A stretch of 29,855 nt of DNA, from the IMG/VR virus record IMGVR_UViG_3300028800_000255, positions 1-29,855 of that record; one strand, written 5' to 3'. Positions 1,099 to 6,095 of the stretch are shown one piece after another (within the stretch, counting starts at the first letter, position 1; the number at the start of each line of letters is the position of its first letter). The position numbers were made by a program, and so were the translations under genes. Below the pieces are notes generated by a model. It worked only from the letters and a program-made list of their open reading frames with translations. It ran no database searches and was not told the DNA's origin. The stretch comes from a virus.

Positions 1099-1593
1099 CT
1101 AATTCACCTGATTAAAGCTCTGCATCTGGCTCATCTTGCCCTTCCACCCGGCAGATGCCGAACGTACAACGGTAAGAATCGGAATACCATGAGCCTGCAA
1201 ATTATCATTCAGAGACTCAAAGAACTTAGGTTCCATCTCAGAGGTCTTCAGCATCCCCAGCGCTACCATTTGATGCGCTATACGAGCAGACTTAGCCAGA
1301 GTTTCTGGATAAACGATAATAACATTCGGCACCTTCCCCGGACTCATCACCCTGAGCGGAGTGTAGGGCTCGCAGGAGAGAGATAGAAAAACTTCGCCAT
1401 CGCCCTCTTCTTCGGAGCCAATGGCTATGTGGGTCATGATGAGATTAGTGTCCTCCTCTACTGCCGGGAAGGCCACGCGCATCATCAGAGCGCCAATTTC
1501 GCACTCTACTGATACACGGGCATAGCCCTTATATACGCCTTCACAGTCAGACTGAGAAATCGGCTTAGTGGTGTGAACTGAGGCCCATGCCAT
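1099..1593 (-). CDS. Hypothetical virion-operon protein, 164 aa
   Basis: No family recognised. The N-terminal half alternates hydrophobic strands (YARVSVECEIGALMMRVAF, near residues 24-42) with an acidic segment (IGSEEEGDGEVF), suggesting a beta-rich domain. The C-terminal half looks helical and ends in a Ser/Gln/Asn-rich tail. Start is supported by GGAG about nine bases upstream; the ATG shares one base with the stop of the Tad2-like gene (TAATG), so the two are translationally coupled. It lies between the Tad2-like gene and the small gene before the glycine-rich fibre. A role with either neighbour is possible but unproven. Confidence 0.75.
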   Translation of the reverse strand: MAWASVHTTKPISQSDCEGVYKGYARVSVECEIGALMMRVAFPAVEEDTNLIMTHIAIGSEEEGDGEVFLSLSCEPYTPLRVMSPGKVPNVIIVYPETLAKSARIAHQMVALGMLKTSEMEPKFFESLNDNLQAHGIPILTVVRSASAGWKGKMSQMQSFNQVN

Positions 1594-1781
1594 TATGCTT
1601 CACTCCAGTCATCGGCAAATATATCACCGCACATAGCATGAAAATGCTGAGGCATATGGTCGATAGAACCCCACACCAAATCCATGTCGCTAAAGGCAAC
1701 ATACCCGCCATTGGATGACCATGCGGTTCTTGTCACCATCTTACCATTTCTTGCTGCAGTCATTGCTTCGAGAAAGTTCAT
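1593..1781 (-). CDS. Tad2-like (DUF2829-like) protein, candidate Thoeris anti-defence factor
   Basis: A 62-residue protein with the family's hallmark layout: an N-terminal MNFLEAMTAARNGKMV helix, then R18-T-A-W21, a central beta region containing W37, and a terminal A-D-D-W at 56-59. Pfam DUF2829 proteins have this order (MnF-x-EAl..GkkV-x-R..W ... ADDW); members shown to be Tad2 bind and sequester the cyclic ADP-ribose signal of Thoeris immunity. At 62 residues it is a little shorter than most members. It has an AGGT ribosome binding site and one-base overlap with the next gene. It sits among virion genes rather than early genes, so a structural or unrelated role for the fold cannot be excluded. 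Family placement is from memory of the motif, not a search. Confidence 0.65.
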   Translation of the reverse strand: MNFLEAMTAARNGKMVTRTAWSSNGGYVAFSDMDLVWGSIDHMPQHFHAMCGDIFADDWSEA

Positions 1782-2564: not shown

Positions 2565-3779
2565 CTAGACTGGGGTCACGCCATATAGGAATTGAGGGGC
2601 GTCCGGTGTAGCGCGCCCAATATTCAGGAATGGCAGGCTCTGATAGATAACCAGCCTGTTGATGCCCTGCGATGCAGTCTGCAAAGAATATGTGCCGCGA
2701 GGATCGCCAGTCGATGTCGTGGCCGGACTCGTCTGGTCTGCCGCTGTCCAGCCGGTGGAAGCAGTCTTTATGACGCCAGCGAAATAAATATCCAGAGTTT
2801 CCCACAAATCGTTGCGAAGCGGGAATCCGTAAAGGTCCGCCGTAATGACGGAATAGGTATGCGTGCTATCAGCAAAGCCCGGTGTAATTGAATTAATAAT
2901 CTTATAGCACTTCTTAGAAGTAACCGTGCTGGCACCGGAAACCAAGGTCATCACCTCGCTCTGGGTCTGCCCATAAATATCAGCGCCTTTCAGCGTGAAA
3001 GTGCCGCCGGTAGCGATAGCGGTTCCCACAATAGAAACACCGCGCTCAATGGCCTGTGTTTCGTCAAAGATAAGCGCAGCACCGCCAGCAATATAAGGGG
3101 CGTAGAATGTCGGGCGGATGGGACCTGCGCCATTAATATTTGCCCAGCCGGGTAATCCGGAGCAAATGCGGGTTGTGGTGGAATTCGTAGCCAGCGGCTT
3201 ATCGGCAACGGTAATTGTCGTCGCAGTGGCCAGCGTAGCTACATAGGTATAGAGATGAGTTGTGCCAGCAGAATTACCAACATTGGTTATGATAATCGGC
3301 TGTCCGACACGATATATAGCACTATTGGCGACAGTAATCGTGGTAGAGCCAGAGGTAACTGCCGGCGTTTCGATACCCAGATCAAGCGCCAAAGCACCGG
3401 TAACGAGATTGCCAGTAGCAAAATTGCGATAAGGAATATTCAGTGAAATACCAACAGAAGCGTTGGTCGCGAGGCTCATCGCCACACCGCTTATTGCAGG
3501 CTGCGGGCTGGCTACGTTGGCAGAGCCGCCGGAAGTGCCGAGTGTAGACGGAACGGCGTTTACAACCAGTATCTGCGGGTTGGAATAAACAGACGGAATA
3601 ACACCGGGATTATCCAGCGCATCCTTCGGCATGGGATAGTAACGCACGTCAGGGAAGGCATTCCCATGATAAGTAATGTTAGGACCGGCTACGGGGTCAG
3701 TCTTCTGACCGCTCGTAGAAATAGCGTCCATCATATTGCCGGAGGTAATAAGCGGTCCTGAGTTTACTGTAGCCGACAT
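2565..3779 (-). CDS. Virion structural protein, 404 aa, Ala/Thr/Ser-rich
   Basis: Acidic-neutral, Cys-poor protein with long stretches of Ala, Thr, Ser, Gly and Val, typical of virion surface proteins. Residues ~135-200 contain a beta-strand alternation (TTITVANSAIYRVGQPIIITN) resembling an inserted immunoglobulin-like or fibre-type domain. The C-terminal ~90 residues carry LWETLDIYFAG and DPRGTYSL. AAGGA precedes the ATG. It follows the capsid gene by 46 bases in the same direction, so a major capsid-associated or tail structural protein is likely. I cannot assign it to a named family. Confidence 0.75.
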   Translation of the reverse strand: MSATVNSGPLITSGNMMDAISTSGQKTDPVAGPNITYHGNAFPDVRYYPMPKDALDNPGVIPSVYSNPQILVVNAVPSTLGTSGGSANVASPQPAISGVAMSLATNASVGISLNIPYRNFATGNLVTGALALDLGIETPAVTSGSTTITVANSAIYRVGQPIIITNVGNSAGTTHLYTYVATLATATTITVADKPLATNSTTTRICSGLPGWANINGAGPIRPTFYAPYIAGGAALIFDETQAIERGVSIVGTAIATGGTFTLKGADIYGQTQSEVMTLVSGASTVTSKKCYKIINSITPGFADSTHTYSVITADLYGFPLRNDLWETLDIYFAGVIKTASTGWTAADQTSPATTSTGDPRGTYSLQTASQGINRLVIYQSLPFLNIGRATPDAPQFLYGVTPV

Positions 3780-3825: not shown

Positions 3826-4734
3826 CTACAGAAGCGGGACAGTTCCCCAGAGTGCTCTCCAGTCGTTAACACCAAAGCTATAGCGCTCATATCCTTTGAC
3901 CAGCACGTTATCAGTCGTGTCATCTGTCCAAATCGTAGTTTCAAACGGAATACGCTCAAGATAGATAAGGCCCTTAATGTTGGTAAGAACAAACCATGCG
4001 TAGTTGGACGAAAAGAAGTCCATCACCTCGTAACCTTCCGGCAGCTGGCCGGTGGAAATCAAGGCATTCACATCGTTGTCTGCCGTGCCGGGGCGAAGCT
4101 CAGTCTTGGTGAGGCGATTAGCCACATATTCCAGCGAGGGCGGAACAAGCAGCTTGCGACCGCGAGCAAAGATTTTCAGATTTGCGTTGTTGCGGAATGC
4201 GCGAATCGCGATAAGAGCGTTGTAGAGCGAAGTTTCGTTCAAATCCACATCGGTCGTCGGTTGGTTGGCAACCGTGCCGCCGTCTACCGGATGCGCGGTA
4301 TTAACATACGATACACCATCGCCGCCCACCTGCGTCTGGTAGGTGGTGGCAGTATTAAACACGTTCGCGCCCAGAATTTCCTTACCCTGCTGGAAAGACT
4401 CCAGAAGGCCGAGGTTCATAGGGTCAAATGCGGTTTTGTACAGGTTATCGTCAATGGATTTGCGCGTCAGTGCGTAACCGAGTGCAATTTCCAGATGTTC
4501 CTGAGTCCATACATAACGCTGGCCGGAGTTGTTATCAAATGTGGTAGCCTGACCTTCCGCCTTGATATAGGGGAGTCCGACATACCGCATGCTGACTGAG
4601 CGCTCAACCGCCATCTGCGAAGTACCCTTGCTGTAGACTTTCGACCACTGCATCGGGATTTGTTCGTACATACCCGGAAGTTCCATGACACCGGGGAGGA
4701 GTAGGTCTTTAATATATGCAAGACTAATAGCCAT
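3826..4734 (-). CDS. Major capsid protein (Mu gpT-like, HK97 fold candidate)
   Basis: A 302-residue protein close in length to Mu gpT-type major heads (~305). It has an N-terminal helical segment, MQWSKVYSKGTS at ~28-39, a central AHPVDGG loop near 147-153, the FARGRKLLVPPSLEYVA segment at ~189-205 that matches the 'LvPP.le..A' hallmark of this capsid group, then an N/D-rich ETELRPG..DNDVNALIST-type region and DFFSSNYAWFVLTN, a typical capsid axial-domain strand. AGGAG lies eight bases upstream. It is preceded by a 205-residue decoration-like protein and scaffold candidates and followed by virion proteins, the expected head cluster order. Assignment by motif and context. Confidence 0.85.
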   Translation of the reverse strand: MAISLAYIKDLLLPGVMELPGMYEQIPMQWSKVYSKGTSQMAVERSVSMRYVGLPYIKAEGQATTFDNNSGQRYVWTQEHLEIALGYALTRKSIDDNLYKTAFDPMNLGLLESFQQGKEILGANVFNTATTYQTQVGGDGVSYVNTAHPVDGGTVANQPTTDVDLNETSLYNALIAIRAFRNNANLKIFARGRKLLVPPSLEYVANRLTKTELRPGTADNDVNALISTGQLPEGYEVMDFFSSNYAWFVLTNIKGLIYLERIPFETTIWTDDTTDNVLVKGYERYSFGVNDWRALWGTVPLL

Positions 4735-4745
4735 CTATTTAACTC

Positions 4746-5363
4746 CTATATTCCGGTTGCGCTAGTGCCTAACCATGCACCAGGGTTTGCCATGACTTCG
4801 ATAATATTGTTAGCGAGCGTGTTGTCGTAACCGGAGTTACCGATTGGCCCAAGATAGTTGTTATACCCAAGACCCAGAACGCGGAACGGATAAGCACTGG
4901 CAGTTGATACCGTGCCAAAATCCGCATAAGCAGTGCTAAGCCCAGTCGTGGTATTGGGAGCCGCGTTAGCAGCAAAGTTAATATTGAGGCCGACGTTCGC
5001 CTGAACAACAGGACCGCCATTGCCGGACTGCACCGCAAACACAGCCTGTGTGTCCGTGATTACGCTTGCATATACACTGCCCGCCAGCGCTGTTGACGGA
5101 GCAAGCCATGCAAGGGTACGAACCTTCTTCAGCTGAACGGTGTCATAATATTCCACCCAATCCATAACACCCAATACCACCGTGTCGGTGGTAAGAGCGC
5201 GGTCAATATAACCGCTGCTGAGAAGCTTTACGACATCGCCCTTACCAAAAGAATTGGCATTGGTGGACGCTATCTCTTGTATGGTTGTTTGATAAGTGGG
5301 CGCGCCACTCAGATTGTTACGAATGAAGCTAAAGCCATTCGGGGACGATGTGTTAGATGCCAT
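4746..5363 (-). CDS. Head decoration-like virion protein
   Basis: A 205-residue protein immediately upstream of the capsid gene with 11 bases between them. It begins with a Ser/Asn-rich tail and FSFIRNNLSGAP, then KGDVVKLLSSGYIDRA, VLGVMDWVEY and TLAWLAPSTALAGSVYASV: a 'high-copy surface protein' pattern in which 'GDVV' and 'vlGv..g' strands resemble phage head decoration/stabilisation proteins. The rest is Ala/Asn/Gly-rich. No strong ribosome binding site is visible (GGGTTTAAG). An unusual 8-bp GC hairpin lies about 65 bases upstream. Function is inferred from order next to the capsid gene. Confidence 0.7.
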   Translation of the reverse strand: MASNTSSPNGFSFIRNNLSGAPTYQTTIQEIASTNANSFGKGDVVKLLSSGYIDRALTTDTVVLGVMDWVEYYDTVQLKKVRTLAWLAPSTALAGSVYASVITDTQAVFAVQSGNGGPVVQANVGLNINFAANAAPNTTTGLSTAYADFGTVSTASAYPFRVLGLGYNNYLGPIGNSGYDNTLANNIIEVMANPGAWLGTSATGI

Positions 5364-5426
5364 TGACTTAAACCCAAAGTCAGGAGCAACACATCCGGCG
5401 CGGAAGGTTAGACTCGTTTAATTCAC

Positions 5427-5445
5427 CCTCTGCGGCGCGCAGAGG
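5427..5445 (-). promoter_or_regulatory. GC-rich hairpin in the capsid operon leader
   Basis: CCTCTGCG and CGCAGAGG form a perfect 8-bp stem with a 3-base loop in the 132-base gap between the 199-residue capsid-region gene and the decoration-like gene. Neither strand has a T-run after the stem, so it is not a classic intrinsic terminator. It could protect or process the highly expressed capsid message, or weaken read-through. Confidence 0.5.
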
Positions 5446-5495
5446 AACTTCATTAAAAGTATATTATCACATTTTTTAACGAATACAAACAGAAA

Positions 5496-6095
5496 TTATT
5501 CAGGAACGCTTACAGCAGCCGGATTACCGCCGGGAAGCTTCTCTTCAAATCCGCGCTCCACCTTAAATCTCTTGGCGTCGATATCGTTGTACGGTGTAGC
5601 CATTCCTATCTCTTCAAATTTATCCTTGACCGTTGCATTCGCCTTACGCGCTTCTTCTTTTTTCGCAGCTTCATTCATGGAAACAGGGCGGTAGTGAAGC
5701 ACCAGACCTTCATACTCAATGATATCGCCCTTGATGAAAGAGGCGAAGTGTTCTGCAAATCCATCGGCATTGCTGGGAAGCGGACGCCAGCCAGCGCGAA
5801 GGACTTCTGCATTATGCTTTGGGTCAGGCTTGTTCAATACGCTATGGCGTTTCCACTCTACCGCAATACCATCGGGGATTAGCTCCTTTGGCACGTAGAG
5901 AAAGTCCTTATCCTCATCTACCTCGCGCTTTATACCAGCGAAGTCACCAAGTGATATAGCCTTGCGCGGCACAGATGCCGTCGTGATTTCTCTCTCCGGG
6001 CGGTCAGCAGCGCGATGAACGGCAAGGGCCTCTACAGCCTGTGTCTGCGCCGGGTTCCATTGCTTAGCCTCAGTCTTCTGTGGAATCTCTACCAT
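5496..6095 (-). CDS. Capsid-region protein, possible scaffold/assembly factor
   Basis: A 199-residue product starting MVEIPQ; this start has GAAAGGA six bases upstream, better than the in-frame ATG five codons earlier. It opens with the same MVEIP-K/Q-x-E-x-K-x-x-x-P-A pattern as the next gene upstream, suggesting a shared N-terminal tag. The central part (FLYVPKELIPDGIAVEWKRH, then AGWRPLP) recalls unnamed proteins encoded near capsid genes in alphaproteobacterial phages. The C-terminal third is Lys/Glu-rich and probably helical. A capsid assembly or internal head role fits the position. Confidence 0.65.
   Translation of the reverse strand: MVEIPQKTEAKQWNPAQTQAVEALAVHRAADRPEREITTASVPRKAISLGDFAGIKREVDEDKDFLYVPKELIPDGIAVEWKRHSVLNKPDPKHNAEVLRAGWRPLPSNADGFAEHFASFIKGDIIEYEGLVLHYRPVSMNEAAKKEEARKANATVKDKFEEIGMATPYNDIDAKRFKVERGFEEKLPGGNPAAVSVPE

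Follow-up and report, generated by a model that had tools for sequence, protein, structure and literature searches.

Members of the Tad2-like family (Pfam PF11195, DUF2829) that have been solved or tested are either signal sponges (PMC12043709, PMC13299392, PMC11722364) or proteins reported as AcrIIA7. The sponges include SPO1 gp34.65, ModTad2, SptTad2 and HgmTad2, and the Tad2 proteins are about 88–104 residues long. The Tad2 pocket is made up of the β1–β2 loop, the β3–β4 loop, β4, the β4–α3 loop and α3, contributed by different protomers (PMC12043709). The V-shaped dimer uses α2 and β2, and the α2/β3 segment is reported to build the dimer along with part of the pocket, while binding of cyclic dinucleotides by SptTad2 and HgmTad2 requires a long insertion between β2 and β5 (PMC12043709). 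On the side of the host, recognition of the major head protein has been described for a Thoeris sensor (PMC12043709).

Here we consider a protein of only 62 residues, P0001, encoded within a 29,855-base IMG/VR virus record (hereafter the window). The original prediction placed it in the Tad2/DUF2829 family and proposed that it could be a Thoeris signal sponge. We find the family assignment to be sound and the anti-Thoeris function rather doubtful.

A mini member of the Tad2-like family

The open reading frame (MNFLEAMTAARNGKMVTRTAWSSNGGYVAFSDMDLVWGSIDHMPQHFHAMCGDIFADDWSEA) carries the signature first quoted for it, MnF..EAm..GkmvtR..W followed by a terminal ADDW. In Pfam it matches the PF11195 Tad2-like profile with 33.4 bits (E 6.9e-8), residues 1–60 aligning with positions 1–71 of 73. 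The curated cut-off is 25 bits, and homologues from two related phages, L002 (35.6 bits) and L006 (31.3 bits), each exceed it independently. The absence of a profile hit, put forward in the original prediction as grounds for discarding the family assignment, is thus not what the search returned. No match was found in PADLOC or NCBIfam, PHROGs gave only weak matches, and the window contains no second PF11195 match.

Structure prediction, the other check suggested at the outset, leads to the same family. The AlphaFold2 model of P0001 has a pLDDT of 97 and, in a Foldseek search of the PDB, matched 21 Tad2 chains (ModTad2, SPO1 Tad2 and SptTad2) with probability 1.00 and TM-scores of 0.83–0.87 by query length, a result to be read with the caveat that the model was built from a 30-sequence alignment of mostly Tad2-type sequences. 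The next match had a probability of 0.51, leaving the Tad2 chains as the only ones above noise. The core of the Tad2 fold is therefore predicted to be present in P0001.

P0001 is, as originally remarked, shorter than most members, its 62 residues comparing with 80–154 (median 90) in 80 Tad2-type viral loci. The size is small yet not unique, since DUF2829 members of 58–67 residues occur among predicted viral structures. One of these, the 60-residue A0A2K9VAK2 of Klebsiella phage KpS110, lies near P0001 in both size and fold (TM-score 0.86/0.88, rmsd 1.5) at 24% sequence identity. We conclude that the gene truly belongs to the Tad2-like fold family, as one of its mini members.

Conservation and selection

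The gene occurs at the same place in two related phages (L002/L008, 57% identity, and L006/L007, 51%; L006 is a 66,105-base contig). Pairwise dN/dS values among the three syntenic phages are about 0.14–0.23, ratios that are rough given the high synonymous divergence (dS 1.7–2.9) and that indicate purifying selection. In the three-sequence alignment of this clade 28 of the 62 positions are invariant, and the open reading frame is a real gene. Its product is the fastest diverging among the operon genes compared, with 50–62% identity versus 93–97% for the major capsid protein (MCP). A scan with the three-sequence alignment found no further member of the clade, nor did a scan of genome contigs with short PF11195 members as queries give any match.

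Loss of the pocket motifs

Two motifs recur in the Tad2-type proteins: a W-N-G in the β1–β2 loop and a W..S..D stretch before the last helix. Among the 80 viral loci, WNG is present in all 48 with the W..S..D pattern, and a W..S..D stretch with a DW end in 69 of the 72 bearing WNG; the loci had been selected for either pattern, hence conditional counts alone are used. Judging from the loop descriptions in a review (PMC12043709), both motifs probably line the pocket.

Like Tad2, P0001 has an N-terminal MxFxxAxxxxxxGxxVxRxxW and a C-terminal D..A.DW, retaining α1, R18, W21 and the ADDW end of the Tad2-type members. Unlike Tad2, it has WSSNG at the position of the W-N-G loop and FHAMCGD at that of the W..S..D stretch. 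Where Tad2-type members approach the last helix through W..S..D, the P0001 clade instead has a conserved loop of its own, SxDHxxQHxHxM (Table 1). The α2/β3 segment also appears to be gone, as strands 27–31 and 34–38 are joined by just two residues in the AlphaFold2 model, and the long β2–β5 insertion of the SptTad2/HgmTad2 type is absent from both alignment and model. A predicted structure lacking the Tad2 pocket had been named as evidence against the original prediction, and this is in part what is seen: the fold core is there, while the W-N-G loop, the W..S..D approach and α2/β3 are not. Membership of P0001 in the functional Tad2 sponge group is not supported.

We considered whether short length alone accounts for the loss of the motifs and rejected the idea, because the proteins of Ahp1, MalagasyRose, PP99 and L041 are short and keep both. 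In Ahp1 (Aeromonas phage Ahp1_CNU-2021, L132:3983-5911) a nicotinamide phosphoribosyltransferase gene immediately follows the gene for the 78-residue Tad2-like protein, a combination that would be sensible against defences that deplete NAD.

AcrIIA7 (PDB 9kzr; also 8kbi, going by its deposited name) belongs to the same Pfam family, and its N-terminal half aligns with P0001 in the profile search; P0001 differs in having neither the sponge motifs nor the long middle region.

The virion operon and its accessory cassette

The gene was originally described as lying downstream of capsid genes, and this is correct: those for the MCP, a 404-residue protein, a 111-residue protein and a gp80-like protein precede it on the same strand (Table 1). 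The MCP is related to HTVC023P-type pelagiphage capsids, and the gp80-like protein is 86% identical in L006.

Table 1. Features of the window in and around the gene for P0001.
Feature	Positions	Strand	Evidence or remark
Glycine-rich fibre-like ORF	3-845	minus	cut by contig end
81-aa protein	842-1087	minus	no known family; downstream of p164; seen in window only
p164, 164-aa protein	1099-1593	minus	N-terminal part paralogous to gp80 (blastp, junction sequence)
P0001, Tad2-like (PF11195) mini protein, 62 aa	1593-1781	minus	Pfam; AlphaFold2 and Foldseek; syntenic homologues L002 and L006
Clade-specific conserved loop SxDHxxQHxHxM, residues 39-50 of P0001	1632-1667	minus	three-sequence alignment
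gp80-like protein	1793-2218	minus	PF23140 'Podophage GP4 fiber I protein gp80'; phrog_240 head protein
111-aa protein	2218-2553	minus	shared by every close relative; marks upstream edge of variable cassette
404-aa virion-region protein	2565-3779	minus	conserved beside MCP in related loci
Major capsid protein (MCP), Mu gpT-like	3826-4734	minus	PF10124; phrog_371

Only 11 bases separate the gp80-like gene from the Tad2-like gene, whose stop codon shares one base with the ATG of p164 (TAATG); across the phages carrying these genes the overlap is of one base or four. With this spacing, a separate promoter immediately in front of the Tad2-like gene would not fit. Scans for promoters and terminators found sites no more numerous than in shuffled sequence.

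A stretch of about 85 residues shows p164 and the gp80-like protein to be paralogues (blastp E 7e-9). The Tad2-like gene thus has a copy of a fibre-type gene on either side, a position that it always occupies in carriers. In addition, p164 has a C-terminal part of about 75 residues that belongs to no known family and is absent from the gp80-like protein. It is known only from phages carrying the Tad2-like gene and had no match among annotated phages, and its AlphaFold model has a pLDDT of 50.6; no solved relative of gp80 was found by sequence.

In two relatives, L009 (MCP 92% identical) and L010 (88%), all three genes (gp80, Tad2-like and p164) are missing together, and other large genes stand between the 111-residue protein and the next shared gene. 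Some related contigs are fragments; in these two the sequence runs unbroken across the region concerned. The three genes form a single accessory cassette, gained and lost as a unit, within a variable fibre region. At the corresponding site, L009 has a gene with a GDSL lipase/acylhydrolase domain (L009:10484-12172), and the arrangement is in line with a site at which fibre or enzyme genes are swapped.

PF11195 genes in other phages

The location of the gene downstream of capsid genes rather than early genes had been singled out in the original prediction; the SPO1 tad2 gene lies in a block of small genes. The late placement is real but not special, and we do not regard it as exceptional, since PF11195 genes are found in the virion or packaging modules of several other phages. 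In Koot the gene lies between internal virion proteins, in PP99 after the tail spike, in SpaA1 between minor head and scaffold genes (PMC3398947), and in L022 directly after the portal gene, which it overlaps. Elsewhere the family is seen in an early or small-gene block (Lenus), near lysis and terminase genes (IME10 and CBW1004C-Prop1) and adjoining the virion RNA polymerase (PhAPEC5).

The members from L022 (78 residues) and L005 (66 residues, flanked by a tail-fibre/reverse-transcriptase block and an endolysin) resemble P0001 in being short, ending in GDIFA[DE]DW, having no WNG and lying in a late context; they differ from it in their sequence (about 31% identity) and in having no gp80/p164 cassette. 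Together with the window clade they suggest a trend, as yet small, for short motif-less members to occur in late modules.

Two of the loci have features of their own. L005 contains two 140-base copies (3375-3514 and 4123-4262) with 16 differences between them; at each of these sites the downstream copy, the template, has A. With the adjoining PF00078 reverse transcriptase (4689-5825) they constitute a diversity-generating retroelement; the upstream copy is located at the end of a 292-residue gene, and the Tad2-like gene follows close behind the element. In the 179-kb viral contig L020, two tandem genes (L020:6001-7572) have an N-terminal Tad2-like domain with about 95 and 290 more residues, respectively, and a glycosyltransferase family 8 gene lies downstream.

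Possible functions

Our first choice, held tentatively, is that P0001 is a divergent mini Tad2-fold protein that is made late and acts in counter-defence by binding a ligand, with changed specificity. Its gene, the central one of the cassette, would be translated as part of the virion operon, the late timing being suggested by gene order. The protein would oligomerise, and a pocket remodelled by the SxDHxxQHxHxM loop would hold a nucleotide, or some comparable small molecule, that serves the host as a signal and is not among the known Tad2 ligands. Made alongside the capsid protein, it would be in place when capsid-triggered defences begin signalling. We rank counter-defence first because it fits the fold, the pattern of selection, the activity of the tested family members and the accessory distribution, three phages having the gene while relatives whose MCP is 88–92% identical do not. 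A sponge role would be compatible with late synthesis: if the major head protein triggers Thoeris (PMC12043709), a late sponge would be sensibly timed. Against ligand binding stand the missing WNG, W..S..D and α2/β3, and inheritance with two fibre-like genes also fits a structural role.

Such a role, with the Tad2 fold exapted as a small assembly factor or structural part that works with the paralogous gp80 and p164 in the particle's variable fibre region, comes close behind and is nearly as likely, though it too is no better than possible. The constant position between the mutual paralogues argues for it, as does the gain and loss of all three genes as a block, at a site where relatives have different large genes, including one that encodes a GDSL lipase domain. 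The overlap with p164 suggests translational coupling, and loss of the signal-pocket motifs points the same way. However, the gp80-like records L013, L014 and L015 were searched and none of the three has a PF11195 gene, and strong divergence typifies counter-defence more than assembly. Moreover, to our knowledge there is no virion-associated PF11195 protein.

It is improbable that P0001 is an anti-defence factor aimed at a protein, AcrIIA7-like or other, with the fold binding a host protein rather than a nucleotide. The family does include AcrIIA7, reported as a Cas9 inhibitor and carrying DUF2829, and the gene is accessory and fast-evolving. The similarity of P0001 to AcrIIA7 is nevertheless limited to the family profile, and no regulator or other anti-defence gene was recognised among its neighbours.

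A shade less probable again is the canonical Tad2 sponge of the original prediction, blocking Thoeris by sequestering gcADPR or His-ADPR. That proposal keeps its foundation in the shared family and fold core and in the conserved α1, R18, W21 and ADDW end. It is weakened by three departures from Tad2: W-S-S-N replaces the W-N-G loop, FHAMCGD replaces W..S..D, and α2/β3 is deleted. In contrast, candidate sponges that are also short, from Ahp1 (78 residues) and MalagasyRose (71 residues), keep both motifs.

Finally, a decaying, functionless Tad2 gene carried as a passenger would account for the lost motifs and middle segment, but is very improbable given a frame kept open in three divergent phages despite high synonymous change, and invariant positions and low dN/dS (see above) that together disfavour decay.

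Implications

PF11195 genes are often labelled 'Thoeris anti-defense 2-like' from a profile match alone. In the present case the pocket motifs have been lost despite a strong match to both profile and fold, and such a label should accordingly not be taken to state a function. A broader reading, which we consider rather doubtful, is that the known signal pocket was lost in one clade of mini Tad2-fold members and that these became part of the virion module, either working together with gp80-type fibre proteins or as a component carried within the particle. If that is true, the motif-less mini members of L022 and L005 would fall in a late, non-sponge branch of PF11195. Should P0001 bind a signal after all, the altered loop would lead one to expect a different ligand, and would point to a defence signal not yet paired with a sponge. 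In either event, P0001 is a divergent representative of a known family, ordinary overall yet instructive.
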